Shown here: piece by piece, positions 12,491 through 60,538 of the stretch
Layout of the letters: every line of letters begins with the position of its first letter
Position numbering within the stretch: the first letter of the stretch is position 1
NCBI GenBank assembly: GCA_026645575.1
Contig: JAPKMW010000003.1
Coordinates: 186,001-250,000, forward strand
Direction: 5' to 3'
From: Caldilineaceae bacterium
Lineage (GTDB): Bacteria > Chloroflexota > Anaerolineae > Caldilineales > Caldilineaceae
DNA length: 64,000 nt
Position numbers and translations under genes: made by a program
Notes under the pieces: generated by a model
What the model was told of the DNA's origin: nothing
The model's input: only the letters and a program-made list of their open reading frames with translations
Databases searched by the model: none

Positions 12491-15400
12491 TTACGGACGA
12501 ATCTCACCGGCGAACCACGTCCCCGCCGAGACCCAGCCGTTGTCGGAGCCGCCCCAGCCCTGGTTGACATAGAAGGAGCGGTTGTACTCCGTCTCGTTCC
12601 AGCACACAATGAAGCATTTGCGCACGGTGCGGCTGCGCCAGGCGTAGCCATAGGCCAGCGGATAGTGGGTCAGCCAGCCGGTGCCGATGACCGCCGGGGT
12701 GCTGCGGTCCACAATGCTGTCGCGAGCATAGTTGCGCAGCCGGTCTTCATGGATGCCCAGGATGTTGTAATGGGTATCCAAGCGGGTGCCGGTGCGGTTA
12801 TTAAAGTACTGGCTGGCATCATCCATGTTCCACGGATTGGTCGGGCCGCTGCCAAAGGCGCACCAGGTGCCAATGTCATTGCGGATCTCCCAGGTCATGG
12901 CGCGCACGCCGCTATCCATGGTTGCCGGCGCCACGGCATCGGCGCCGGTGCCGCCACCCTGGCGATAGAGACCCCAGCGGGAGGCCCAGTAGGCGTTGCC
13001 ATTGGCGGCCTGGTTGTCGGCCCAGCCAAAGAGCATAGCCCAGGCCGTGCCGCCGCAACCGCTCCAACAGCCGGAGCTATTCGGCGATGAACCAGCCGCC
13101 ATCTGGCTGTAGAGCCGTTGCGCGCCATGCGTACCGGCCCAGAAGTAGTGCCAATCACTCCAGGCGCCGTTGATGGCCTGGACACTCGCCGCGTTCACAT
13201 TGGCCCCGCCCTTGTTGACCAGCGGCAGGAAGAGCTTGTTGCCCGTCTGCGCTCCTGGCAGCGTCTCCCGCGTATCCAGCACCACAAACTTGATGGTCTC
13301 CTGTTGCGCCTGCACTCCCGTCGCACTGGCCGCCTGAACGTTGGCATAGTTGATTTGGGCCGTCAACGGCAGTTCTTTGCCTGGCTCGGCATTTTTGACA
13401 AAGATGCGCAGCGTAGCCGGGACCGTGCCAGTAGAGACAACGCTCCAGTCGATGTAGCCGGCGCCTTCGCCCGTCATTTGCACGGCTGGTTGACCGGCGT
13501 AGAGCAGAGAAACCGTGTAGGTGTTGCCTTTGAACAAGCCTTCGCCAAAGTCGCGGGCCAACTGATCGGTCTCCCAATCCTCGGCGGCTTCCCGTTTGAG
13601 CGCTTCGATATAGACGCCATACGCCTGTGCATAGCCCTGCTTGAGCGCCGCCCACGATTCCCAGCCTTCGACCTTCAGATTGGGGTCAGGGCCAGGGCCG
13701 CTTTCTTGCAACGAGCCGCCAATGCCGCCGGCTTCGCCGTCGTTCTGCGTCTCCTTATTGGGCGTCCATTGGCTGCTGGAAATTTCCACCGGTTTGTCCA
13801 GAACTTTGGGATCGATGCCGCTAATCTTGAGCGCCTGCGTTCCCGGCATGGCGACCAACTCACCTTTTTCATCTTCGCCGGCATAGCTTAGGGCGTCGAG
13901 TTTGTAGAACTTGGCAACCTTCTTGCCCGCCTTGGCCGCTTCACAGGCGACATGCTGCGTCGGCGTCTCGCCGGTGTAGTTCCAGTGGGGAATCGGGTGA
14001 TCGTGCGGGCCAGTGGATACAATGATAAAGCCGCGCCCAGAGGGCTCCCGGCCACCCTGCCCATTCACTACCTGGAACTCATAGTAGGCAACGCCAGTCA
14101 CGTCGGGGCGGTAGAGTTCACGCACCAGATCAGCCAGCCGCGCCTCTTCCCAACCGGGGGCCATCGGCCCGCCGCGCATTTCGGCCAGCAGCTGGCTCGC
14201 TGTGCGCAGGAATTCCAGCGGAACATCGCTCAGTTTCACCGTCCCGGCAGTCGGGTTCGGGTCTACACAGGCGACATCATCGACCCGGATCATGGCCGTT
14301 TCCAACAGCGATTCATTGCCCGCCTTGTCACGGAACATGGCGTAGACATGGGCGAACTCACCCAGCGGGGTCGGCGCCAGTTCCCAATCGATCTCCTTCT
14401 GGAACGTTTGCCACGGTGTTTGACTCAGATCGCGGCTGTTGCCCAGCTTCATTTCCACAATGTCGTTGTAGAATTCCTCATCTTCATAGGGTACAAAGCT
14501 CAGTTTGACCTTGAGACTGGTCGTGCCGGCGGCGCCATTGTTGATCAGGATCTTGGCTTCCGGCTGGAAGGGATCTTCGCTCGGCGTGGCGCCCTGGCTG
14601 GCGACCACCGCGCTGCGATGGTTGTTGGCATCGACGCCCATCATTTTGTAGTAGTAGGGCTGGCCGTTCTTCACCTCTTTGTCCAGATATTCGCCAGTCG
14701 GCGGCACTTCCTGGTTCAGCAATTGCCACGGGCCGTTGGGATTCTCGGCGCGATAGAGAATCATCTGCTGATAACTACGTTTGACATCAAAGCGAATCTT
14801 CACACTGTTGACATCGGCGGTGGCTTCGACAAAGTCGGGCGGCAGGATGTTGTCATCTTTGGCGTTGAAGGGGGTCTTCCGCTTTTCGACTTCCGAACCA
14901 TCATTCTCGCCGCCATCATCAGTGTCGGAATCGTTGGGATTCGTGCCAAGCAAATATTCGCTGTAGTTGTCCAGCCAGTCGAGATCATTGTCAGCGTCGG
15001 GGCTGGTCAGGCCATTTTCCCGCTCGTAGGTGTCGGGCAGGCGGTTTTTATTCTCATCAGGCGCTTCGAGAACGGTGAAGGCGCCAAGCGCTTCCCGTTG
15101 GAACTGGGCATGGTTGACCAGAATCCGCACCTGATAGGAGCCTTCGTCACGCGGTTCGGTCGGCTTATCGCTTTCCTTTTCCTGAATTGGGGCCACTGGA
15201 TTGGCCTGGTTAACCCTCTGGTAGAGACCGGCGTAGAGACCATCACCGGCGGCGCCATCGCCATGCTGACCATCATCAAACAGGGGGACGATACTTTCTG
15301 TCCCATCGGGCGCGGTGACAATGGCCTGCACGGCGGCATCGCCAATCGGCTTTTCCCCAGAGACCAGCGCATAGAGCGGCACGCGTTGGCCGGTGAACTT

Positions 15401-18028
15401 TTGCACAGCGGGCAGCAGCAAGGTCATGGCCGTGATATTGCTATCGCCGCTGACAATGACACGGTAGGGCAGCTCGCCGGGGCTGTAGCTGTTCGGTTCA
15501 TGATTGACCAACAGCTTCCACTGACCGGCCATTGGGTTGGCAATGCGCCAGCCGAGATGGCCGCTGCCAATATTTTTGAAGGTAAAGGGCAGATCCTTTT
15601 CGGTGTAGAGTTTGCCATCAGGCGCCTGCAACTTCAAGGTCAACTGTGGGCAGAACTCCTGGCAACCGCCACTGTTCCACTTGAGGGCGAAGAGCGCTTC
15701 TTTGACCGAACTATCGATCAGCACCGTATGTTCGCGATCAGCCTGCGGTCCACTGGTGATGGTCGGGGGCATGACGCCCTGTTGGTCGAGCAGCCGTTGG
15801 CGCCCTTCGTTGCGCGCTTGGGCATACTCATAGGTGCTGGCGAGGTCAAGGGCGGTGTCGGCAAAGCTGGCCGCGGCGACGTCAGCGCCGGCCGCCAGCA
15901 CGCTGCTGACAAAGACATCATTATAGAAGGCCGCGCCGCCGGTGGCAGTGGCAATGCTCTGCATCAGGGTCTCGTCGGCAGCGGAACCAAAGGCAATGGT
16001 TGTCACCGGGCAACCCGTTCCCTGCACCGCAGCCTGGACATCGCTCCAGAAGAGCGAACTATTTTCCATGCCGTCGGAAAGCAGGACAAAGGAGCATTGT
16101 GGGTTGCCCGTGGGGCTGCCGGTGCGCTGGGTGACGGCGGCATTGAGACCGTCGCCAATGCTGGTGGCGCCGCCGGGGAAGAGGGCGTTGATATAGTTGC
16201 GCGCGTTGGTGCGTACATTGAGATCGACGGATTGCATAGCAAAGGGCGCCGGGCTGACATTGTGGTCAAAAGGCACGACCGACAAACCGTCGCTGTTGCG
16301 GGTAATGTCCACATAGAAATTGGCGGCATCACGAGCGGCTTGCATCTTGCCGTCGCTGCTCATTGAGCCGGAGCGGTCAATGACCAACACCTGATCAACC
16401 TGGTCGGGTGTATATTGCACACTGGCATTGTTCGTGTCCGTGGCAATCGTCGTGGCGGTGCCGGACGCTTCCAGGCGGATTTCCAGATCGTATGTGCCAT
16501 TCGCCGTTTGATTAGGCGCCTGGATCAGCAACCAATATTGCTCCTGAATAAAGCCGCCGGCAGTGATGAGCGCATTCTGCCCATTGACCCGCGCCTTGAA
16601 ATCATTGACCGTCAGACCGGCGACGACCGGGCCTTTGGGGTCGCCGTCGGTGACAACCACCTGGGCCAGGAACTTGCCGGGGCCGTCAAAGGGGCCAACC
16701 TTGGCGACGGCGGTGCTGTTGGGCAGTTTGATGTCGATGACGGGATTGACACATTGGAGCGTCACATCGGCTTGGGCGCTGTTGTTGGTGGCGCCGGCAA
16801 TGGCAACGATGCGGGTGATGCCGTCGTTAAAGAAAGATTGGCTCCAATCGGTGCTATTGCTATTTTCCACATGGCTGGCAAGGACGCCCCCCTTGTCGGT
16901 GATGACATGGAAGAAGGCCGGGCCGTTGTCGGTGTGGAAGGTGGCGTTGATCACTGGGCAGGTGGCGCCGGGGGTGGCGCGATAGTAGCGGGCGCCGTAG
17001 CGACTGAGCGCCTGGTTGGCAAAGGTGGCCGGACTGCCCACGCTAATCACGCCGCCGCCGCTGGTCGTCGGGTTGACCGGGCCGTAGGGCGCCGGGTTGC
17101 CGACCTGATCTTCGTCGATGTAATTGAAGGAAGCGTTGGGTTGGTTGCTCAAATCTTTGACCCAGTTGGCCGCCGTGAAGCGGCGGAAGGCGGCGTCAAA
17201 GTTCGTACCGGCGCCCAGCGTATTCAGGGCGGCGTTGACAGCGGCAATGTCATCCTGCGTCTCCGCCCGTTCCCAGAGAACGCGCAGCGCGTCGATGCCC
17301 CGTTCCGGCTCGTCGGGATCGCTGCCAAAGCGTTCGGTGAAATATTTCCACCAGAGCGCCGAGTTGTAGCGCTGGGGGAAGCTGGTGATATCTACATTGC
17401 TATTGTTGAGATAGGTGTTGACCTGTTGATTGAAGGAGAAGGCCGCCGTTGCGGCATTAACCCAGTTGTCAATCTCGGCAAAGGCCAGGTCTTCCGAGAC
17501 GCGTGCGGTGCCTTCAAAGAGCCAGAAACCGGCGGAGACATCGTCGCCATAGGCCAGTTGAATGCGGTGAAAGAGTTCATGACCGGTGACCTGGGACATG
17601 CCGCCATCGGGCGTGAAACAGCCGTTGTTGACAAACATCCAGTTGACGCCAACGTCGGTGCCGCCATTGCAGGCGGCGTTGCGCACTTCCACGACCAGCT
17701 TGCCGGTAAAGAGCGGCGCCCGAAAGCCTAACGCCACATAGCGGTTCCAATATTGCTCGGTCAGGTCGGCGACCGTGGTGGCCTGGGCCAGGGTCGTGTT
17801 GGCCTGATTGTACCGGACACAGAAGTTGGTGCGGTCTACCAGGTTGGGGAAGTTGGATGGCCCCGCTGGACAGGCCGCTTGGCGCAACGGTGCTGGTTCC
17901 GGCGCCAGGCTCGGCGCTGCCGAAACCGCCAGCGGCATCTGCGGGATGATCAAACTGAGCAAAAGCAGAAAACGAACGAGGTGGACGATAGGTCCTCTAG
18001 GGCGGCGCACGGGTGGTGAATGCGTCAT
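12491..18028 (-). CDS. Giant secreted multidomain protein: zinc protease, VWA, papain-like
   Basis: An 1845-residue protein with a signal peptide (about residues 1-38) and AAGGAG before the start. Near residue 150, HELFHRI is a zincin HExxH motif, followed by WLFEGTARVSED with a plausible third ligand Glu. Near 549, DRSGSMS is an intact MIDAS of a VWA domain. Near 1030, a D-rich run (DADNDLDWLDNYSE) is a thrombospondin-3-type calcium-binding stretch, then a fibronectin-like region. KLFLPLVNK near 1596 is an internal copy of the secreted-protein end motif. From about 1620, GCGGTAWAMLFGW (Cys), WLTHYPLAYG (His) and YVNQGWGGSDNGW (Asn) form a papain-like domain. Probably a surface or extracellular protease and adhesin; target unknown. 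Confidence 0.7.
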   Translation of the reverse strand: MTHSPPVRRPRGPIVHLVRFLLLLSLIIPQMPLAVSAAPSLAPEPAPLRQAACPAGPSNFPNLVDRTNFCVRYNQANTTLAQATTVADLTEQYWNRYVALGFRAPLFTGKLVVEVRNAACNGGTDVGVNWMFVNNGCFTPDGGMSQVTGHELFHRIQLAYGDDVSAGFWLFEGTARVSEDLAFAEIDNWVNAATAAFSFNQQVNTYLNNSNVDITSFPQRYNSALWWKYFTERFGSDPDEPERGIDALRVLWERAETQDDIAAVNAALNTLGAGTNFDAAFRRFTAANWVKDLSNQPNASFNYIDEDQVGNPAPYGPVNPTTSGGGVISVGSPATFANQALSRYGARYYRATPGATCPVINATFHTDNGPAFFHVITDKGGVLASHVENSNSTDWSQSFFNDGITRIVAIAGATNNSAQADVTLQCVNPVIDIKLPNSTAVAKVGPFDGPGKFLAQVVVTDGDPKGPVVAGLTVNDFKARVNGQNALITAGGFIQEQYWLLIQAPNQTANGTYDLEIRLEASGTATTIATDTNNASVQYTPDQVDQVLVIDRSGSMSSDGKMQAARDAANFYVDITRNSDGLSVVPFDHNVSPAPFAMQSVDLNVRTNARNYINALFPGGATSIGDGLNAAVTQRTGSPTGNPQCSFVLLSDGMENSSLFWSDVQAAVQGTGCPVTTIAFGSAADETLMQSIATATGGAAFYNDVFVSSVLAAGADVAAASFADTALDLASTYEYAQARNEGRQRLLDQQGVMPPTITSGPQADREHTVLIDSSVKEALFALKWNSGGCQEFCPQLTLKLQAPDGKLYTEKDLPFTFKNIGSGHLGWRIANPMAGQWKLLVNHEPNSYSPGELPYRVIVSGDSNITAMTLLLPAVQKFTGQRVPLYALVSGEKPIGDAAVQAIVTAPDGTESIVPLFDDGQHGDGAAGDGLYAGLYQRVNQANPVAPIQEKESDKPTEPRDEGSYQVRILVNHAQFQREALGAFTVLEAPDENKNRLPDTYERENGLTSPDADNDLDWLDNYSEYLLGTNPNDSDTDDGGENDGSEVEKRKTPFNAKDDNILPPDFVEATADVNSVKIRFDVKRSYQQMILYRAENPNGPWQLLNQEVPPTGEYLDKEVKNGQPYYYKMMGVDANNHRSAVVASQGATPSEDPFQPEAKILINNGAAGTTSLKVKLSFVPYEDEEFYNDIVEMKLGNSRDLSQTPWQTFQKEIDWELAPTPLGEFAHVYAMFRDKAGNESLLETAMIRVDDVACVDPNPTAGTVKLSDVPLEFLRTASQLLAEMRGGPMAPGWEEARLADLVRELYRPDVTGVAYYEFQVVNGQGGREPSGRGFIIVSTGPHDHPIPHWNYTGETPTQHVACEAAKAGKKVAKFYKLDALSYAGEDEKGELVAMPGTQALKISGIDPKVLDKPVEISSSQWTPNKETQNDGEAGGIGGSLQESGPGPDPNLKVEGWESWAALKQGYAQAYGVYIEALKREAAEDWETDQLARDFGEGLFKGNTYTVSLLYAGQPAVQMTGEGAGYIDWSVVSTGTVPATLRIFVKNAEPGKELPLTAQINYANVQAASATGVQAQQETIKFVVLDTRETLPGAQTGNKLFLPLVNKGGANVNAASVQAINGAWSDWHYFWAGTHGAQRLYSQMAAGSSPNSSGCWSGCGGTAWAMLFGWADNQAANGNAYWASRWGLYRQGGGTGADAVAPATMDSGVRAMTWEIRNDIGTWCAFGSGPTNPWNMDDASQYFNNRTGTRLDTHYNILGIHEDRLRNYARDSIVDRSTPAVIGTGWLTHYPLAYGYAWRSRTVRKCFIVCWNETEYNRSFYVNQGWGGSDNGWVSAGTWFAGEIRP

Positions 18029-18409: not shown

Positions 18410-19234
18410 ATGACTAAACGGCTACGCTGGCCACAGATACCCGAACGGGTCAAATCCAACGAAATTCATTACCCGGAAACGGACGGGAAACCGATGACTG
18501 AGTCTGATTTACACCGTGATATGATGGCCTACCTGATTCGTCTGTTGCAACGCTTTTTTGCCGGGCAGGCAGTCTATGTGAGCGGCAACTTGCTGGTTTA
18601 TTATGAACAGGGCAACCGGTACAAATCAGTGGCGCCGGATTGCTTTGTTGTGCGCGGCATAGATCCGCGCCTGCGCAAAACCTATAAAACCTGGGAGGAA
18701 GGCAAAGCGCCGGAAGTGGTCTTTGAAGTTACCTCCCACAGCACGCAGAATGATGACCTGGGCAAAAAGATGGGGATCTACGCCCAGATGGGGGTGCAGG
18801 AGTATTACCTCTATGATCCTACAGCCGATTACCTGCAACCCTCCTTACGCGCCTTTGTCTTACAGGGGGGCGGCTATGTACCGATGACGCCGGTGCGGGA
18901 AGCGGTGGAGCTTGGTGATCTGGCGTTTGTTCCTGATCCCGCCGAGCCGCCCGAATTTATCAGTCCGCTGCTTGGCCTACGCATTACGTTGGACGAAGGC
19001 AACCAGTTGCAATTTTACGATCTCAGCACTGGCCAACGTCTTCTCTCTGATGAAGAGGCGCGCTATGCTGCTGAGTCCGCCGCCGCAAGCGCTGTACGGC
19101 AGGCGGAACAAGAGGCGCAGCGAGCAGAACAAGAAGCACAGCGGGCGGAGCAGGCAACCCAACGCGCAGCCGAGGCTGAGGCCGAGAATGCCCGGTTGCG
19201 TGCCGAACTCGCCAAGCTCCGTGGTACGCAGTAA
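18410..19234 (+). CDS. Uma2-family PD-(D/E)XK nuclease-like protein
   Basis: A 274-residue Uma2 (DUF820) protein with AAGGGAGC before its start. The nuclease core shows VAPDCFVV and PEVVFEVTSHSTQNDDLGKKM (the D...ExT...K arrangement) and then YAQMGVQEYYLYDP. The C-terminus from about residue 220 is a charged coiled coil with repeated EQEAQRA units. Uma2 proteins are numerous in Cyanobacteria and Chloroflexota; a nuclease role is inferred from the fold and the biological role is not established. It precedes a DNA methyltransferase on the same strand, 72 bp away, but the two need not be a restriction pair. Confidence 0.85.
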   Translation: MTKRLRWPQIPERVKSNEIHYPETDGKPMTESDLHRDMMAYLIRLLQRFFAGQAVYVSGNLLVYYEQGNRYKSVAPDCFVVRGIDPRLRKTYKTWEEGKAPEVVFEVTSHSTQNDDLGKKMGIYAQMGVQEYYLYDPTADYLQPSLRAFVLQGGGYVPMTPVREAVELGDLAFVPDPAEPPEFISPLLGLRITLDEGNQLQFYDLSTGQRLLSDEEARYAAESAAASAVRQAEQEAQRAEQEAQRAEQATQRAAEAEAENARLRAELAKLRGTQ

Positions 19235-19306
19235 ACCTTTGCCTTAACCATTCATCTACCCTGGTGGATTGCACAAGGGTAGATGGCATTCCGCAGAGTA
19301 CGCTTC

Positions 19307-20227
19307 ATGCCCATCAAGAAAACCACCACTTCCGCCTTCGGTATCAGCAAACGCGAATCACACGACGCTTCGGCCTTCTATGCCCGCAATCTCTATCGCG
19401 AGCAACCGACAGACGCGCCTCCGCACGCTAATGGCAATCAACCTAATATCCAATATCCAATACCCAATATCGACACCTGGGCTGACCGCATCTACTGTCA
19501 ATCCGCCGCGGCAATGATGCCTATCCCCGATAACAGCGTCGGACTGGCCTTTACCTCGCCGCCCTATAATGTCGGCAAGGATTATGATGATGACATGAGC
19601 CTGGAGAGCTATCTGGCGTTGATCGGCCAGGTGGCGCGCGAGGTCTATCGCGTGCTCTGTCCTGGTGGGCGCTATGTGGTGAATATTGCCAACTTGGGGC
19701 GCAAACCCTATATCCCGCTGCACGCCTACTTTTATGAGCTCCACCAACAGGTCGGTTTTCTGCCCATGGGCGAGATCATCTGGCGCAAGGCCAAGGGCGC
19801 GAGTGGCAACTGTGCCTGGGGTAGTTGGCAGAGCGCCAAGGCACCCCGGCTGCGCGACCTGCATGAGTATCTGCTGGTCTTTACCAAAGAAAAATTCGCC
19901 CGCCCCGACAAAGGCGAATCGGACATTAGCCGTGATGAGTTCATGGCCGCCACTCTCTCCATCTGGGAGATCGGCGCTGAATCGGCCAAGCGGGTGGGCC
20001 ACCCGGCGCCCTTTCCGGTGGCCCTGGCGGAGCGGGTGATCCGGCTCTATTCGTATGTGGGCGATGTGGTGTTGGATCCCTTCATGGGGTCGGGAACGAC
20101 AGCGGTGGCAGCGGTGCAAAATCAACGCCATTATGTGGGCTTTGATATTTCTGAAGAATATTGTACACTCGCAACAACCAGGATCAATGCTATTCAATGC
20201 CAAAACTCTACGAGTACTTCGGGTTAA
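19307..20227 (+). CDS. DNA methyltransferase, SPPY (beta-class, probably N4-cytosine)
   Basis: A 306-residue enzyme. The catalytic motif [11 protein letters not shown] comes first and the AdoMet motif [14 protein letters not shown] near the end, the order of beta-class methyltransferases; SPPY usually marks N4-cytosine specificity. The N-terminal ~45 residues are not conserved-looking and include [10 protein letters not shown], which is the translation of tandem AATATCC heptamers at about 19442-19472. No restriction endonuclease of known type adjoins it, so it is either an orphan methylase or works with an unrecognised partner. Its end overlaps the DUF4160 start by 31 bp. Confidence 0.8.
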
Positions 20228-20502
20228 TCGTTTTCTTTTACTCGAATGAGCATGAGCCGATCCATGTTCACGGCAAATATCAGAACACCGAGGGTAAGGC
20301 CGAACTGATCATTGCTGAGGGTAAAATTGTAGAAATTCGTTATGCCAATGTGAAAGGGCGTAGACCGCTTGATGCAAACCAATTTCGCGATTTCCAAGTG
20401 GTCGTTGAACACTTTGCTGAGGAGATCATTCAAAGATGGATCGACTACTTTATCTTACACAAAACGGTTCCTTCTCAAACCATCCGGCGGCGGCTCCGCT
20501 GA
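20197..20502 (+). CDS. DUF4160 protein, toxin-antitoxin-like
   Basis: A 101-residue protein beginning [23 protein letters not shown], with the HVHGKY motif and [23 protein letters not shown] typical of DUF4160. DUF4160 genes usually precede DUF2442 genes, as here, and the pair has been proposed as a toxin-antitoxin-like module; I know of no settled activity. It starts within the methyltransferase end and overlaps the next gene by 67 bp, so all three may be translationally coupled. Confidence 0.8.
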
Positions 20503-20759
20503 ACCTTGCCGATGACGAGGTGATCGATATCGAAGAAGCGCAATATATGGAGCGCTACAAGCTAATGCTACGCTTTAGCAATGGCATGAAGCGGGTTGTT
20601 GACTTCGAGCCATTTCTCACAACCTCAACCAATCCGTTAATTCGGAAATATCTGAATTTGAGCAACTTTCAAAATTTTGTCCTTGAGTATGGAAATTTGC
20701 ACTGGAACGATTATGATCTATGTTTTCCAGTCGTTGATCTATATGAAGGACACATATAA
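20436..20759 (+). CDS. DUF2442 protein, partner of DUF4160
   Basis: A 107-residue protein; the block ERYKLMLRFSNGMKRVVDFEPFL and the ending LHWNDYDLCFPVVDLYEGHI are DUF2442 features (the W..D.D...D-LY pattern). The first ~30 residues are coded inside the DUF4160 gene. Family members resemble DNA-binding antitoxin-like proteins in operon structure. Followed after 58 bp by the protein A plus C39-like cassette. Confidence 0.75.
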   Translation: MDRLLYLTQNGSFSNHPAAAPLNLADDEVIDIEEAQYMERYKLMLRFSNGMKRVVDFEPFLTTSTNPLIRKYLNLSNFQNFVLEYGNLHWNDYDLCFPVVDLYEGHI

Positions 20760-20817: not shown

Positions 20818-21198
20818 ATGTTTCCAGTTTTATATGAATACGCTGATAGTTGGCCAACAGAAGGGCCGCTACAAATTAAAGCGCAATTTGTCCAAGAGAT
20901 CACGGTAAAACCCGATGATGCGCGACGCACCGCCAATGCTTACTTGGGTCTTGATGTAAGTATGGCCTTGCGGGCCAGCAACCCAATGCTGATGTTGGGT
21001 GGTAAGCGCCCTCTCTGGCGTCTTTTTATTGATCTCCATTGGTATAAGCAGGGCAAAATTGCCACGCTTGGCACTCTAGATGTCGATGCTCTGAATGATG
21101 AAGTCATTCCCTTAGCTAACAACGAAATCGAAAACCTACGGAATAAAGCAAATGACCTTATTGGCCGTCTCGCATCAGCCACAGAAACAGGAGTCTGA
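20818..21198 (+). CDS. Protein A of the A/C39 cassette, copy 1
   Basis: A 126-residue soluble protein beginning MFPVLYEYADSWP. I recognise no named family. It is clearly homologous to the gene at 60146-60538: both share VLYE, a central AxRxANxYLxxDVxMA, the GxRPxWR segment, GxxDVDA and VIPL, then a helix with AN.L..RL. Predicted beta-rich body with a C-terminal helix, no signal peptide. Its last 47 bp overlap the start of the C39-like gene, exactly as in copy 2. It could be an inhibitor, chaperone or substrate of that protease. The region is richer in A+T than the SDR gene downstream. Confidence 0.7.
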   Translation: MFPVLYEYADSWPTEGPLQIKAQFVQEITVKPDDARRTANAYLGLDVSMALRASNPMLMLGGKRPLWRLFIDLHWYKQGKIATLGTLDVDALNDEVIPLANNEIENLRNKANDLIGRLASATETGV

Positions 21199-21625
21199 TT
21201 GCTTGGCTGCTTGTAGTGCAATGGTGCTTGATTATCTGCATGTACCGTATACCTATCCTCAACTTCTTCGACTATTACAAATTCAATCATTCGGGGCCTG
21301 GTTTAGGAATATTCAATTTCTACAGGCGCTGGGTCTCACTGTGTCAGTGGGGTATGGCAACGTCGAAACGCTGGAAATGTATCTGGATGTGGGCCTACCC
21401 ATTATTACCTATGTGAATACTGGGTTTCTAACCTCCTACTGGCCGGAAAGTACAAACCATGCTGTGGTAGTCATCGGAATTGAGGATGAAAATATCTATT
21501 TGAATGATCCCTTTTTCCAGGTTGCACCCCAAGTCCTGTCATTAAACGAATTTTTATCGGCCTGGATCGAACAAAAACAGCTATACGCAATCATCGGACT
21601 CACCACAATCGACACACCGAAATAG
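21152..21625 (+). CDS. C39-like papain-fold cysteine protease, copy 1
   Basis: A 157-residue single-domain protein. The segment ESDCLAACSAMVLDYL carries the likely nucleophile Cys, NHAVVVIGIED the His, and IYLNDPFF the Asn/Asp, the order of peptidase C39 domains. C39 domains usually form the N-terminus of bacteriocin exporters; here there is no transporter, no signal peptide and no membrane segment, so it is cytoplasmic. The start is fixed by homology with copy 2 (LLAVSH in both). The 47-bp overlap with protein A implies coupled translation. Confidence 0.7.
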   Translation: MTLLAVSHQPQKQESDCLAACSAMVLDYLHVPYTYPQLLRLLQIQSFGAWFRNIQFLQALGLTVSVGYGNVETLEMYLDVGLPIITYVNTGFLTSYWPESTNHAVVVIGIEDENIYLNDPFFQVAPQVLSLNEFLSAWIEQKQLYAIIGLTTIDTPK

Positions 21626-22512: not shown

Positions 22513-22887
22513 CTAAAATCGCAAATCCAAAATCAATTTGCTCAAGGCGGCGGCTGGGTCTTCACAGAGACCGGAGTGGACGGGTGAACTCTGAATAACC
22601 GTACTGTGGGGGGCGACAAGCCAGTGAAAGCGTTCGGCGCGATCAAAGTGGGCAAAGGGTCCTTCACCAGCACAGATGCGGGGAATCAAGTCGAGGTGGT
22701 CGCGCACGGTGGCAATTGACAGGTAAGGCGCCAACGCTCGCAGCCGTTCTTCCTCTAGATGGATTTCAGCCGCCAGAAAACGTTTGGTGCGACAAAAGAG
22801 AATAACGCCGGCCTGGATAAACTCGCACCGCTCCACACGTGGCGTCACCTGGATGTAGGCATAATCATACGAGTGCAGCACGGGCAT
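22513..22887 (-). CDS. DUF3037 protein
   Basis: A 124-residue protein with SYDYAYIQVTPRVERCEFIQAG and LFCRTKRFLAAEIHL, typical of DUF3037. It overlaps the HipA-like kinase gene by 23 bp at its start. DUF3037 genes are commonly coded next to HipA-like kinase genes, so the pair probably forms one functional unit. No biochemical role is known to me; the arrangement suggests a regulator or substrate of the kinase. Confidence 0.75.
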   Translation of the reverse strand: MPVLHSYDYAYIQVTPRVERCEFIQAGVILFCRTKRFLAAEIHLEEERLRALAPYLSIATVRDHLDLIPRICAGEGPFAHFDRAERFHWLVAPHSTVIQSSPVHSGLCEDPAAALSKLILDLRF

Positions 22888-23647
22888 TCACGGCCTCCTG
22901 CACAAAAATATCAGCGGATGCTAGCCGGGCATTCAGATAGGCCAGGTAGCCGGCGCGATGTTCATCGGGGGTGGCAAATTGGCTTTCCGTGCCCAGCCAA
23001 CCGCCGGGAATCGCGTCGGTGATCTGCCGCAAGATGGCCTCTGTGAGCAAGGGGCGTAGACGTTCATTAGCTTCTCGCACCTTGCTGGCCCGCGGTAACA
23101 ACACATGCTGGCGAATAAAGGCAAAGGGCGAACGGCTACGCTCCAGGTAGTCACTCCAATCGTGATGAAAATAGAGGGCGGCGCCGTGGTCGATGAGCCA
23201 GAGTTCTTCTTGCCAAAGCAACATATTAACATTGCGCGGTGTGCGATCCACATTGGTGACGTAGGCGTCGAACCAAACGATGGCCGAAGCCAGATCTGCG
23301 CTCACCGGTGGTTTTAACAGTGGGTTGTAGGCAAAGGCGCTGGGCAGATAGCGCAATGCCAAATTCAAGCCGCCGCTGGCCTGAATCAAGTCGCGAATTT
23401 CCGGGTGCGGCTCCGAGCGGCCCAAAACCGGGTCGAGTTCGATAAAGACGATCTCCGGTAGGCGCAGCCCCAATACGCGCGCAATTTCGCCGGCCACCAA
23501 TTCGGCAATCAACGCCTTTGGCCCTTGCGCCGCCCCCACAAATTTCATAACATACAACTCCCCATCATCGGCTTCTACCACTGCCGGGACGGAACCGCCT
23601 TCGCGCAAGGGGTGGATATAGCGCGTTGCTGTCACTGTTCTGATCAT
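22865..23647 (-). CDS. HipA-like kinase
   Basis: A 260-residue protein beginning MIRTVTATRYIHPL. Kinase-like signatures: YVMKF (ATP-binding Lys), YVTNVDRTPRNVNMLLW (catalytic loop, D..R..N) and LWLIDHGAAL (metal-binding D of a DFG-like motif). HipA proteins phosphorylate targets such as glutamyl-tRNA synthetase and act as persistence toxins; here there is no HipB antitoxin and instead a DUF3037 gene overlaps the end. It is about 60% of the length of E. coli HipA and lacks its N-terminal subdomain, as in the HipA-like DUF3037 partners. Confidence 0.75.
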   Translation of the reverse strand: MIRTVTATRYIHPLREGGSVPAVVEADDGELYVMKFVGAAQGPKALIAELVAGEIARVLGLRLPEIVFIELDPVLGRSEPHPEIRDLIQASGGLNLALRYLPSAFAYNPLLKPPVSADLASAIVWFDAYVTNVDRTPRNVNMLLWQEELWLIDHGAALYFHHDWSDYLERSRSPFAFIRQHVLLPRASKVREANERLRPLLTEAILRQITDAIPGGWLGTESQFATPDEHRAGYLAYLNARLASADIFVQEAVNARAALV

Positions 23648-23666
23648 GCCAAGAACCAATCTTCTT

Positions 23667-24366: not shown

Positions 24367-27300
24367 TTACCGGCGCACCATCGGCAAGTAGAGCTGGTTC
24401 TTTGGCCCGACATTGGTGACGCAGCTCTGGCTCACATCAATGTCTTTGGAACCGATCACCACATTCCCATAGTTGTCGGTAATTTCGACCCGCATGGTGT
24501 GTTGATTATCGGCGCCGCAGAGGTATTGATGGCTGGTCTGCGCCCCAACCGAGATGACATAGGGGCTGCCATCGCCAAAGTCCCACCGGTATTGCACCGT
24601 TTTCGGGAAGAGGGTGTTGGCACTCCGTTGTTGCAAACCATAGGCCACCGCCGCGCTAAATTGCTGCAAGGTGCTGCTGGTCGCCACGGTGTTGGTAATC
24701 TGCACCGTGGTTGGCGCCGGTGCCCAGGTCCAATCCAGGAAGGCGCCGAGCAATTCGCTACGCGTGGTGGGGGTCACACCAAGGCTGGCGTTAAAGCTGT
24801 TGCTCATCCCTTCCAGACCAAAGGTGGCATAGACGCTGCGCCCGGAGTAGATGATGCCGGGTTCTTCCAATGACGGTTGTAGCCGATGGCCCATGGCGAC
24901 GGTGCCATTGTAAAGATTGTTTGGCCCTTGGTAATAGAGAAGCGGCGTACTGGTGAAGTTTTTATCAATGCCATTCGGATCTTCCGAGCCATCGTGGGAG
25001 CGATTGTCAATCTCATCCACAAAGGCTTGATTGTCTAATACTTTTGGTACAATCTGGCCGCGGATCTCGCCGCCGGGGTTGGCGGTCGTGTGGACATTGA
25101 TATAGAGACCCCCACTAGCCATCTGCTGCACTTCGGTCACAGTCAAGCTCGGTGAGATGACGCCGGAGACGCGCAAGGTATTGGTGACCAAGCGGGGCAA
25201 TGTCAAGCCGCCCAGGGTCGCCAGGTTCCGAATGACGGGGCCATTGACGCCCGCTCCCCCAACGTGGATATGCATACCCGTAACGGTAATCGGTTGGGTG
25301 GTTGAAGGCGTTACTGTGACCCGGAAATCCGTGTAGTTGCTATCAATATCATGGAAGATCGAGAACGAACCTTTGGTTAGCGTCGTGACCGGTGTCACTT
25401 CCTGCGTGCCGGAGAGCGGACCGGTGGCAGCCACCTGGCGCGGTTTCGTCAGATCCACTACGGTATTGGCAAGGAAGTCCGGAGCATGATTGGTCGGGCG
25501 AATCAACGCTTGTGGCGTGGCAGCGCCGGAAAGGCTATCCTGAATCCAGTTCGCGCCCAACCGTGCTGAGTAGAAGAAATCTGGATTGCTTGGATCTGTT
25601 ACATCATTGTCAATGGTCGCGGCCATATCTTGGCCCATGACAATGACGGAACCGCCGGCATTCAGATATTCCACCAGTTTGTTCATGTCCAGATCAGCCA
25701 ATCCGGCGCCACTGACAAAGTTATCTCCAGTGAAATAGACGATGGCACGGTAGGCGCTCAAGGTGGCGGCGCTCGGTAACGCCGTAACCGTCGGTCGATA
25801 GTCCAGTACCGTATAAGTGTACCCCAGTTTTTGGAGCGCATCGATATAGTACCAGCGGTAGTCCGTAGTGGGGAAACCAAAGGAAGCGCCAGTCGAGCTG
25901 AAATCACCATCGATAAGCAATACATCGGCGACCGGTGTGGCCGATATGACGCGCGCCCAAGCCGGCATATGGGCATCGTGTGTAGGGCCATCCATGATCA
26001 CAAAGCCTTGATTATCGCCCATTCCCAGACCGTTTACCGAGTTGAAAGTAACGGCAATTTTTTTGCTTTCTCCCGGATTGAGGCTGAGGGAAGTCACACT
26101 GGCGGTGACGCCGGGTAGAGCTTTGGTTTGGGTTGGTGCAAAACCATTGCCCGTATAGAGCGTACTCAACGTGTAGGTTTCCGCCGCCGCCGCCACACTC
26201 GTCACGGTCACCGTGATTGTCTTTTGTGTGCCAGTGGGGACAAAGCCAAAGCTCAAACTGGGCGGCTCAAGAATGACGCCAGGGTCAGCCGCTTTTGCCA
26301 AATCCAGGCGACCGGCGCCCATGTCAAGTGGCTGAGCCGGTGTTCTGCCATCAGCTTGGTAAACATCCATGTACTTTGAAGTTGACATCAAGGCCGACTT
26401 GATCGCCGCCACTGACCAAGTGGGGTGGATCTGCTGCAAGAGGGCCGCCGCACCGGTAACATGGGGCGCCGCCATCGATGTACCAGATACCTGACCATAG
26501 CCCAGATGGCGCGCTTCGCCAGTTGCGCCATCTGTATAGCCCTGGGCTAGAATGTTAACACCTGGTGCAGCAATATCAGGCTTTAAAGTGCCGCCAACAC
26601 CTGGACCGCGGCTGCTAAAGCCGATGATGCGATCGGGTTTGCTCCCGGATTGAAAGGTATTTTTGGTATCCAGTTGCAGAATAGCAGCAGCGGCGCCATT
26701 CGTATTGTAGTGGCTAATTAGCCGGTCACCATTGGTTTTACCGATAAAGACGGCAGCGATAGTAACTTGGTCAGCATTGGCGCCAGCACCCATATTCATA
26801 ATATCGTCGCCACCGGTAGCATGGTTGTAAACCATAACAAAGGTAGCGCCGGCTTGTTGTGCATTAAAGACCTTCAAACTGAAATCACAGGAACCGCGGC
26901 TAATGAGCGCCGCCTTGCCACTGAAGGCGTCAGCCGGCCAAGCATTACAACCAAGAACGTTAGCCGGATCGACAACACTGCCAGGCAAATACGGGAAATC
27001 CGTGATGGTGTTGACAGGAAGATTTCCGCCAAAGGATGCAGAGCCAAAAGGCATTGGCGCGATGCTGGGTGTGTTTAGAATACGTACGCTACCAACGGCT
27101 AAGGTTCCGCCGGTTGTGCTGGCGGCGACGTTGATATAGTGGGGTGATGGATGATCGCCGGTCCCCAAGCCAGGGCCAGAATTGCCATTGGACATCGAGA
27201 CAAAGATGCCGGCTTTCGTAGCATTGATCAAGGCCGTATCCAATGGGTCAAATTCACCGCCAATGCTGCGGGGACCGCCGCCCCACGAGTTGTTGACCAC

Positions 27301-28299
27301 ATCGGCGCCATCTTGCACAATATCTTCTAAGGCGGCGATACCTTCGGTGTCGTAAAAGGAACCAATGCCATTGACGCTCTCATAGAAGACGCGATAGCTC
27401 ATCACATAGGCGCGCGGCGCCACACCACTGATCGTGCCGACATTGAACCCATTATAGGTAGCGGTGACAACGCCGCCAGCCGCCGTTGAGGAGGTGTGCA
27501 TCCCATGCGACGTGCCGGCGACACCCGGCCACGGGTTCTCATCACCAGCCGCCGGCGGATCCCACGTGCGGAAGTAGGCGCGCGAGGCGATGATCTTGCC
27601 GTTGTTGTTGGCGGTTAGCCCCAAGCCGTTGGGGCCGTAGCCGGGCGGGTAACTGTAGCCGGCGCCATTCATCATCGGCGCCAGATGGTGGACGCCGCCA
27701 TCCATGGAAGCAACCTTGATGCCGGCGCCGCCATTGGCGCGCCCCCCCACGGCATTCCAGAGGATGGGCGCGTTAATCAACGTCGTGCTAGTGTAAAGCT
27801 GCGTATAATGCGGCGTGTCAAAGTAGACATTCTTGACGCCGGGCAATTTGACCAGCGTGCGCAGGGCGTTGGCCTTCGGCGTGGCGCCAGGATTGACCGC
27901 CAAGCCATTGAAGACGATCTGGTAGGTCGCCTCTTCGGTAACGCCGGCCTCGTTGCGGAAGGTAGCCACCGTCGCGTCAGTGAGCGCCGCCTTCATGTTG
28001 CTCACAAAGGTGGCCTGTTCCGCGCGCAACTGGTTGATATACGCCTGCGCAGCGACTGAGTTGGCGTCGAGCTTGCCATTGACAGCCGCCGCGGTCACAT
28101 CGGTCAAATAAGCGGCGGCAAGGGGGGGCGTGTCCAATTCAACAATGAGACGAGGCGATTCAGCAGCGGCCTTCTCTGCCGGGGCAGAGGGACCATCATT
28201 GACCACGGGGGGTTGTACTTCGGCATGAGCGATGGGTGTGATCATCATACTGAAGATGACGATCACAGCGATCATGCGCATGACCCGACCTTGAAACAT
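24367..28299 (-). CDS. Secreted subtilase (S8) with PA, CHRD and PKD domains
   Basis: A 1310-residue protein starting at 28299 behind AAAGGAGA, with a signal peptide ending near PIAHA. The catalytic triad is visible: Asp in VASMDGG (about 196), His in SHGMHTS (about 263) and Ser in GTSMAAPH (about 606); a PA-type insert lies between His and Ser. A CHRD domain (LSGTQEVTP to NPGGEIRGQI, about 955-1085) is inserted downstream, then a PKD domain (WDFGDGSP, about 1239). It ends LYLPMVRR, the putative surface-sorting tail of these proteins. Likely an extracellular protease for protein degradation. Promoter at 28411-28439. Confidence 0.88.
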   Translation of the reverse strand: MFQGRVMRMIAVIVIFSMMITPIAHAEVQPPVVNDGPSAPAEKAAAESPRLIVELDTPPLAAAYLTDVTAAAVNGKLDANSVAAQAYINQLRAEQATFVSNMKAALTDATVATFRNEAGVTEEATYQIVFNGLAVNPGATPKANALRTLVKLPGVKNVYFDTPHYTQLYTSTTLINAPILWNAVGGRANGGAGIKVASMDGGVHHLAPMMNGAGYSYPPGYGPNGLGLTANNNGKIIASRAYFRTWDPPAAGDENPWPGVAGTSHGMHTSSTAAGGVVTATYNGFNVGTISGVAPRAYVMSYRVFYESVNGIGSFYDTEGIAALEDIVQDGADVVNNSWGGGPRSIGGEFDPLDTALINATKAGIFVSMSNGNSGPGLGTGDHPSPHYINVAASTTGGTLAVGSVRILNTPSIAPMPFGSASFGGNLPVNTITDFPYLPGSVVDPANVLGCNAWPADAFSGKAALISRGSCDFSLKVFNAQQAGATFVMVYNHATGGDDIMNMGAGANADQVTIAAVFIGKTNGDRLISHYNTNGAAAAILQLDTKNTFQSGSKPDRIIGFSSRGPGVGGTLKPDIAAPGVNILAQGYTDGATGEARHLGYGQVSGTSMAAPHVTGAAALLQQIHPTWSVAAIKSALMSTSKYMDVYQADGRTPAQPLDMGAGRLDLAKAADPGVILEPPSLSFGFVPTGTQKTITVTVTSVAAAAETYTLSTLYTGNGFAPTQTKALPGVTASVTSLSLNPGESKKIAVTFNSVNGLGMGDNQGFVIMDGPTHDAHMPAWARVISATPVADVLLIDGDFSSTGASFGFPTTDYRWYYIDALQKLGYTYTVLDYRPTVTALPSAATLSAYRAIVYFTGDNFVSGAGLADLDMNKLVEYLNAGGSVIVMGQDMAATIDNDVTDPSNPDFFYSARLGANWIQDSLSGAATPQALIRPTNHAPDFLANTVVDLTKPRQVAATGPLSGTQEVTPVTTLTKGSFSIFHDIDSNYTDFRVTVTPSTTQPITVTGMHIHVGGAGVNGPVIRNLATLGGLTLPRLVTNTLRVSGVISPSLTVTEVQQMASGGLYINVHTTANPGGEIRGQIVPKVLDNQAFVDEIDNRSHDGSEDPNGIDKNFTSTPLLYYQGPNNLYNGTVAMGHRLQPSLEEPGIIYSGRSVYATFGLEGMSNSFNASLGVTPTTRSELLGAFLDWTWAPAPTTVQITNTVATSSTLQQFSAAVAYGLQQRSANTLFPKTVQYRWDFGDGSPYVISVGAQTSHQYLCGADNQHTMRVEITDNYGNVVIGSKDIDVSQSCVTNVGPKNQLYLPMVRR

Positions 28300-28410
28300 G
28301 CGAGCTTCTCCTTTGCGCAATGCACTTTCTGAAGATGATCTTAAAAACAAAAGCTGTTTCTGTTGGGGTGAAATGCAGCCAATACAAAGGTAGTAAAGAC
28401 TGTCCTATGT

Positions 28411-59444: not shown

Positions 59445-59726
59445 TTGAAAACTTACTCAATCACCAAAGCCCGTACTCATTTCAGCAAACTGCTCCATGT
59501 AATTGAACAAGAAGGTATTATTCAACTTACGCGTCGTAACAAAGTCGTCGCCTTTTTGTTTTCGCCAGGTGAGTATGAGCGATTATCGCAAAATAGACAA
59601 ACTGGTTTTTGGGACGCTTATTTGGCCTTTCGTCAACGGCTTGAGCAAACCGATCTGGATCTTGACCCTGCTGAAATTTTTGCAAATGTGCGCGATCAAG
59701 CGCCTGGTAGTGAAGTGCGTTGGTAG
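59445..59726 (+). CDS. Phd/YefM-type antitoxin, orphan
   Basis: A 93-residue protein starting TTG at 59445 behind AAGGTGA. MKTYSITKARTHFSKLLHVI then RRNKVVAFLFSPGEYERLSQ is the Phd/YefM antitoxin fold. No toxin gene follows: the next gene, on the opposite strand, ends 2 bp away. It is thus an orphan, or it pairs with something unrecognised. It lies at the edge of the second A/C39 cassette. Confidence 0.75.
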   Translation: MKTYSITKARTHFSKLLHVIEQEGIIQLTRRNKVVAFLFSPGEYERLSQNRQTGFWDAYLAFRQRLEQTDLDLDPAEIFANVRDQAPGSEVRW

Positions 59727-59727
59727 C

Positions 59728-60192
59728 TTATGGCGGTGCTAACCCTATAACCCCGTAAAGATTTTTCTCTTCATACCAGGCTAAATTAAACTCAGCCAGC
59801 GCGATTACTTGTGGCGCTTCGGGAAAAGCTGGGTCATTCAAATAGATAGTTTCTCCTTCTATGCCGATAACGACAACTGCATGAATCATCTCCTGGTAAT
59901 CCCAATAGGACAACATCTGGGTGTTAAGCGAGACAATCACGGGTAAGCCTGTGTCCAGATAAGCCTGCAATTGTTCAGGGCTACCGTAATCGATAGTCAC
60001 GGATAAACCGTAGGCAGACTCTAGATGATGTAAGTTACGAAAGAGTGTACCAATTGGCATAGTGCGTAATACTTGCAACAAGCGTTCATATCGCACCGGC
60101 ACCTGTAGATAATCCAAAACCATTGCCGTACAAGCAACCAGACAGTCAGCCTGTCGGCGCTGTTTCCAGTGTGAGACGGCTAGCAAGTTCAT
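59728..60192 (-). CDS. C39-like papain-fold cysteine protease, copy 2
   Basis: A 154-residue protein with start at 60192 (MNLLAVSHWKQRRQADCL). The likely Cys nucleophile is in ADCLVACTAMVLDYL, the His in MIHAVVVIGIEG and the Asn/Asp in IYLNDPAF. Clear homologue of the protein at 21152. No signal, membrane segment or transporter. It overlaps protein A copy 2 by 47 bp, as copy 1 does. It ends 2 bp from the end of the antitoxin gene at 59445. Confidence 0.7.
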   Translation of the reverse strand: MNLLAVSHWKQRRQADCLVACTAMVLDYLQVPVRYERLLQVLRTMPIGTLFRNLHHLESAYGLSVTIDYGSPEQLQAYLDTGLPVIVSLNTQMLSYWDYQEMIHAVVVIGIEGETIYLNDPAFPEAPQVIALAEFNLAWYEEKNLYGVIGLAPP

Positions 60193-60538
60193 TGGCTCTG
60201 TCCTGCATTGTTTGAATTTGAGTAGGGGTGAGGGGAATGACAGCACCTGTCATCGCGTCTACGTCAATAGCACCAACTTGCGCCACTCTGCCCCATTCGC
60301 TTAAGAGTAAGCTGGTTGTCATGCGCCAGATTGGTCGTTCACCCCAGATTAACACTGGTTCGTCAGCCACAATTGCCATTGCGACATCCATACTGAGATA
60401 GCCGTTAGCATGGCGCTTTGCTTCTTTAGGCGAAACGGGAATGGTACCAGTAAAGGTTTTGCCCATAAAGCGACCTTCAATCTGTAGCTCACCTTTTTCC
60501 GGCCAAACGCCTTCCCATTCATAAAGGACTTGAATCAT
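60146..60538 (-). CDS. Protein A of the A/C39 cassette, copy 2
   Basis: A 130-residue protein beginning MIQVLYEWEGVWPEKGELQIEG. It shares VLYE, an AxRxANxYLxxDVxMA block, GxRPxWR, GxxDVDA and VIPL with protein A copy 1, and both end in a Thr/Gly-rich tail (TAPTG here). No known family recognised. Its gene overlaps the C39-like gene by 47 bp, the same number as copy 1. Confidence 0.7.
   Translation of the reverse strand: MIQVLYEWEGVWPEKGELQIEGRFMGKTFTGTIPVSPKEAKRHANGYLSMDVAMAIVADEPVLIWGERPIWRMTTSLLLSEWGRVAQVGAIDVDAMTGAVIPLTPTQIQTMQDRANELASRLTLETAPTG

Follow-up and report, generated by a model that had tools for sequence, protein, structure and literature searches.

A putative toxin-antitoxin-like gene pair of a C39 papain-like protease and a PepSY-like partner in Caldilineaceae

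Proteases are, to our knowledge, rare among the proteins proposed as toxins of toxin-antitoxin (TA) systems. In the stretch of DNA analyzed here, called the window (64,000 nucleotides of contig JAPKMW010000003.1, positions 186,001 to 250,000, assembly GCA_026645575.1 of a Caldilineaceae bacterium), a gene for a small protein, named protein A, is followed by a gene for a single-domain C39 papain-like cysteine protease, and this A-C39 pair invites comparison with several described systems. One of them is the pair of a COG2856 (ImmA-type) Zn protease and an Xre protein, for which a protease adjoining, or fused to, a DNA-binding protein is described and a TA-like nature predicted, as proposed below for A-C39; there, however, a metalloprotease is proposed to cleave the repressor, whereas in A-C39 a PepSY-like protein accompanies a cysteine protease (PMC2701414). 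Papain-like proteases are represented by the Cpe1-Cpi1 pair, in which Cpe1 is tied to delivery by the type VI secretion system (T6SS) and by contact-dependent inhibition (CDI), whereas A-C39 lacks a delivery domain and has the partner gene first (PMC12136450), and by the Tox-PL-C39 domains described in polymorphic toxins (PMC3482391). PepSY domains are described as occurring mainly in secreted proteins, with an inhibitor role long suspected (PMC6393860), and for archaea two papers mention PepSY and C39 genes separately (PMC6393860, PMC4158269). No description of an A-C39 or PepSY-C39 pair was found in the titles and abstract beginnings among the papers listed, a set mostly outside subscription journals and preprints.

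The PepSY proteins YpeB and YpmB and the vibriolysin propeptide are secreted or membrane proteins; staphopain is secreted as well, and staphostatin has a different fold. The arrangement of the staphopain-staphostatin pair, a protease with a dedicated inhibitor, is nevertheless similar to that of A-C39. Unlike YpeB (5boi), YpmB (2gu3) and the vibriolysin propeptide (3nqz), A is cytosolic by its sequence, separate from the protease, and below the PF03413 (PepSY) cut-off. With type II TA systems of the Phd/YefM, AbrB/MazE and AF2212 types, A-C39 shares two small co-directional genes with the antitoxin-like gene first, a frequent overlap, occurrence in multiple copies, A proteins that in some cases bear antitoxin heads, and retention of A upon decay of C39. 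What sets it apart from the known ones is a papain-like C39 protease as putative toxin and a PepSY-like protein as putative neutralizing part, neither of which was found in the literature searched.

Copy 1 of the pair lies on the forward strand and consists of an open reading frame (ORF) for an A protein of 126 aa, the putative PepSY-like antitoxin or inhibitor (20818-21198), and the gene of the putative toxin, a C39 protease of 157 aa (21152-21625; PF03412, E 1.5e-13). The two overlap by 47 nt (21152-21198), and the stop codon of A finishes one base ahead of the codon for the catalytic Cys of C39. Copy 2, on the reverse strand, comprises an A protein of 130 aa (60146-60538), recognized as an ORF and by its likeness to copy 1, and a C39 protease of 154 aa (59728-60192; PF03412, E 5e-12). 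Its overlap is also 47 nt (60146-60192) if C39 starts at the ATG homologous to that of copy 1, as assumed here; an alternative in-frame GTG further upstream, at 60246, would yield 172 aa. The ORF coordinates bear out the preliminary description, made from the letters of the window, of a protein of about 126-130 aa followed by a single-domain C39 protease, present twice with a 47-nt overlap each time. The homologous second pair it placed at 59728-60538 on the opposite strand was likewise recovered, and since the copies are 42% (A) and 54% (C39) identical, the two pairs are diverged copies and not chance ORFs. Scanning copy 1 for promoters and terminators gave matches no more numerous than in shuffled sequences, and the inverted repeats upstream of A are short pairs.

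Related loci were collected from 60 places around C39 matches, 40 around further C39 matches and 40 around A matches without obvious C39 or extra A copies. The C39 loci were taken from among the matches listed, with weaker C39 places outside the count, and each set of identical or nearly identical loci entered the count a single time. Together with the loci returned by the profile searches and the window's two, 148 distinct C39 groups were examined, of which 118 are intact (pieces without an N-terminus are not part of the 118). Immediately upstream of the intact C39 gene lies an ORF matched by the A profile in 113 of these 118, and an ORF that by sight combines an AbrB-like head with an A-like tail in another 3; the other 2 C39 genes start at most 180 nt from a contig end. 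Pairing of A with C39 is near-constant, and the type II TA trait of two adjacent genes occurring together is thus present in 113 plus 3 of 118 cases. Two loci (L173 and L035) show an A-A-C39 series, and tandem pairs also occur.

The catalytic residues are conserved across the intact C39 proteins (Cys in 117/118, His in 118/118, Asp in 117/118), and the C39 profile, the Cys-His-Asp triad and an oxyanion Gln together identify a peptidase C39 fold. Both window proteins also exceed the curated cut-offs of PF03412 and PF13529. They are single domains of 154 and 157 aa, without the fusion to an ABC exporter that characterizes C39 domains of bacteriocin exporters, and no T6SS/CDI trafficking domain of the kind found on Cpe1-type effectors was detected on either. 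As previously noted, neither copy of the pair has a membrane segment: the highest 19-residue Kyte-Doolittle means of 0.89-1.39 indicate no long hydrophobic stretch. Other C39 enzymes cleave at glycine-glycine sites.

For protein A, family assignments are less direct. No Pfam family was matched by copy 1, and at the level of structure A weakly resembles PepSY folds. The curated PF03413 cut-off was missed, the best score being 20.4 bits versus 24 (L200), and the window's A proteins gave no match to this family; one relative (P0049) carries a precomputed PF03413 match. Assignment of copy 2 A to Csx3 was considered (Pfam Cas_csx3, E 0.059, below the cut-off; PADLOC Csx3, 0.016) and taken as chance. 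A minority of A relatives possess N-terminal heads that Pfam identifies as Phd/YefM or AF2212-like antitoxin domains, and Pfam recognized no antitoxin DNA-binding head on the window's two A proteins. The heads of L222, L225 and L226 are called AbrB-like from inspection and from the names of two relatives, and were recognized by neither NCBIfam nor Pfam. The names under which sources list the close relatives of A suggest an origin in Caldilineaceae, Chloroflexota. Additional N-terminal segments, antitoxin-like by sight and belonging to no Pfam family, were seen in L064 and L117, and a C-terminal extension (e.g., PPYQPR...EYLAKNVPPAP) without C39 overlap in L024, L052, L059, L086 and others; part of it is predicted with high confidence to form strands in L024. 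Locus L009 (1138-1882) encodes a 213-aa protein that contains a pair of A-like domains, followed by what by sight appears to be a remnant of C39 from which an internal part is deleted.

The preliminary description had named A usually occurring without C39 as speaking against a module. This is not what was found, with an intact C39 beside 103 of 158 intact A genes, a C39 remnant beside 30 and none detected beside 25, in loci partly selected for lacking C39, so that these proportions are not rates. Seven remnants were set aside, four near locus ends, one running into a contig end (L039) and those of L173 and L035, where the A concerned is the first of an A-A-C39 series. The 23 left display single stops, frameshifts, interruptions and truncations; three of them (L157, L175, L190) rest on weak matches (E >1e-3), one (L152) contains masked bases, and some breaks may be errors of draft assemblies. 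The reverse case of an open C39 beside a broken A was encountered once and is doubtful (L213). A Fisher value of 4e-12 for this lopsidedness is given no weight, as the loci were drawn from the best-ranked matches of two lists and were partly chosen for lacking C39. Deletions are biased toward loss of C39 because C39 mostly begins inside A, while point changes carry no such bias. Three pairs of A genes in which both members lack a detected C39 gave dN/dS values of 0.04-0.15, with dS saturated in two, and solitary A genes thus seem to be kept under purifying selection. Were C39 harmful in the absence of A, lopsided decay of this kind would be expected. In L170 and L192, a solitary A is followed by ORFs resembling, by sight, MNT nucleotidyltransferase and HEPN proteins, which may reflect partner exchange or chance.

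In six pairs, A and C39 share one frame with a single stop between them. With this stop read as glycine, a linked chain was modeled from an alignment of 6 joined and 88 single-gene rows whose placement was checked, and the resulting model reached a pLDDT of 94.6 and a pTM of 0.91. A pTM of this height for a linked two-protein chain suggests a firm contact between the predicted partners. The overlap itself was measured in 112 pairs, being 47 nt in 33, of another length in 66 and absent in 13. Apart from one 353-nt value that is an artefact of start choice, the other overlaps range from 4 to 65 nt, and the reading phase is shared by 93 of 99. An exact overlap of 47 nt, as shared by the two window copies, is not a fixed trait but the commonest value; what holds of the supposed constancy is the mostly conserved reading phase.

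The spread of the family was followed in the order, class and phylum samples of G001, the genome containing locus L001. In the order, the C39 profile (A4) matched 12 of 46 genomes (E<=1e-20); in the class sample the figure is 67 of 396 (E<=1e-10), with no genome showing more than 8 matches when fragments are counted, and in the phylum sample it is 5 of 400 (E<=1e-8), the starting genome among the five. With the best 10 candidates per genome considered, a narrow A profile (A3) matched 3 of 400 phylum-sample genomes and a wider one (A5) 76 of 396 class-sample genomes. Around loci of at least 4.5 kb, 92 neighbors were picked, 76 of which have at most 600 aa, and 69 of those were scanned. Since no Pfam family occurred in more than 3 of the nearest neighbors, the A-C39 pair appears to be a unit that stands by itself; the families listed (25 of 69) are diverse, and many have metabolic functions. 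Phage and plasmid records yielded no match to one C39 query each, nor did viral contigs in one scan with a single short pattern, and the earlier suggestion of a mobile module is not supported by these searches. Set beside this lack of matches are the patchy occurrence, the repetition within genomes and the varied neighbors. An apparent A-C39 fusion (P0135), found on a contig of 1074 bases and incomplete in both its A and its C39 portion, was not used.

Taken together, A and C39 probably form a cytosolic type II TA-like module with C39 as putative toxin and the PepSY-like A as putative antitoxin. The TA-like or protease-inhibitor reading of the preliminary description gains from the near-constant pairing, the antitoxin heads on some A proteins, the lopsided decay of C39 and the predicted contact, while C39 toxicity, inhibition by A, autoregulation and the target are what we infer. 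In such a module, C39 would be an enzymatically active cysteine protease of the papain type, damaging to the producing cell when free, and A, the first gene product of the same operon, would bind C39 and keep it inactive, as pairing, decay and model suggest. Headed A proteins, or the A-C39 complex, may repress their own promoter through the N-terminal antitoxin DNA-binding domain. Once A is lost or degraded, C39 would be released and attack at least one protein of the cell, perhaps at glycine-glycine sites. Three C39 genes weigh against this interpretation and slightly reduce our confidence in it: that of L224, cut by a contig end and not part of the 118, has neither an A nor another ORF directly before it (upstream of 2491), and L237 and L238, the two weakest phylum matches, have no A match, the C39 of L238 being embedded in a 494-aa protein. 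We take L237 and L238 for other C39 families. The fuller proposal, toward which we lean by a narrow margin, is an undescribed TA family centered on one Chloroflexota class, with a cytosolic papain-like C39 toxin cutting essential proteins at glycine-glycine, a PepSY-like inhibitor with varied heads (Phd/YefM, AF2212, AbrB/MazE), and one inhibitor fold serving both extracellular propeptides and intracellular antitoxins. If true, the module would link proteases and PepSY domains to intracellular conflict, be a case of one neutralizing domain with exchangeable DNA-binding heads, make it possible to test directly whether a PepSY-like protein inhibits a protease, and contribute a family from a little-studied bacterial group.

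The same anatomy might serve anti-phage abortive infection, with A sensing infection and releasing C39 so that the cell is killed or arrested. This role would be compatible with a TA-like module, and the TA anatomy and the multi-copy, patchy distribution speak for it; we consider it possible though tentative, since no PADLOC model fitted A or C39 beyond the Csx3 value for one A, and the neighbor families listed are varied and often metabolic. A protease with a regulated housekeeping function and a cytosolic inhibitor of its own, resembling staphopain and staphostatin in arrangement and acting on a physiological substrate without self-harm, appears unlikely, given the patchy occurrence in class and phylum samples (67/396 and 5/400), the several copies per genome, the frequent loss of C39 while A is retained, the differing antitoxin heads and the varied neighbors.

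Much less probable still is peptide maturation, in which C39 would remove a double-glycine leader and A would be helper or precursor: C39 consists of one domain only, none of the families listed (25 of 69) for the 69 neighbors scanned is that of an ABC transporter, and the GG in the loop of copy 1 A, also considered as substrate mimic and dismissed, is present there in only 3 of 141 A proteins with a readable loop. We regard as equally improbable an effector delivered to rivals with A as immunity protein. Papain-like effectors with adjacent immunity genes do exist, yet the immunity genes described with them mostly follow the toxin (PMC12136450), whereas A precedes C39; moreover, the window C39 proteins carry no trafficking domain, and autoregulation is a better fit for the DNA-binding heads on A.

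Regarding the surroundings in the window, Pfam confirmed the genes for DUF4160 and DUF2442 reported ahead of copy 1 as well as the Phd/YefM antitoxin gene beside copy 2 (59445-59726, forward strand; PF02604, E 6.4e-10), a neighbor tail to tail with copy 2 rather than a demonstrated part of the module. The location of copy 2 within a run of Gfo/Idh genes was substantiated in part: a scan identified Gfo/Idh for the syntenic neighbor in L001, while the window genes are assigned by resemblance only. L001, from a Caldilineaceae metagenome-assembled genome, is syntenic to copy 2, with the 47-nt overlap, Gfo/Idh before the pair and, in the same place as in copy 2, a gene after it that by sight resembles Phd.

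Just before copy 1, at 18410-20759 on the forward strand, genes for Uma2 (PF05685), an N6/N4 DNA methylase (PF01555), DUF4160 and DUF2442 follow one another, possibly as a defense or TA-like cluster. Separated from copy 1 by one gene (SDR), two overlapping genes at 22513-23659 on the reverse strand, for a HipA_2-like kinase (PF20613, 2.3e-20) and a DUF3037 protein (1.2e-35), also show TA-like anatomy. Two large genes on the reverse strand encode an 1845-aa VWA protein (12491-18028) and a subtilase of 1327 aa that carries PA and CHRD domains (24367-28350).
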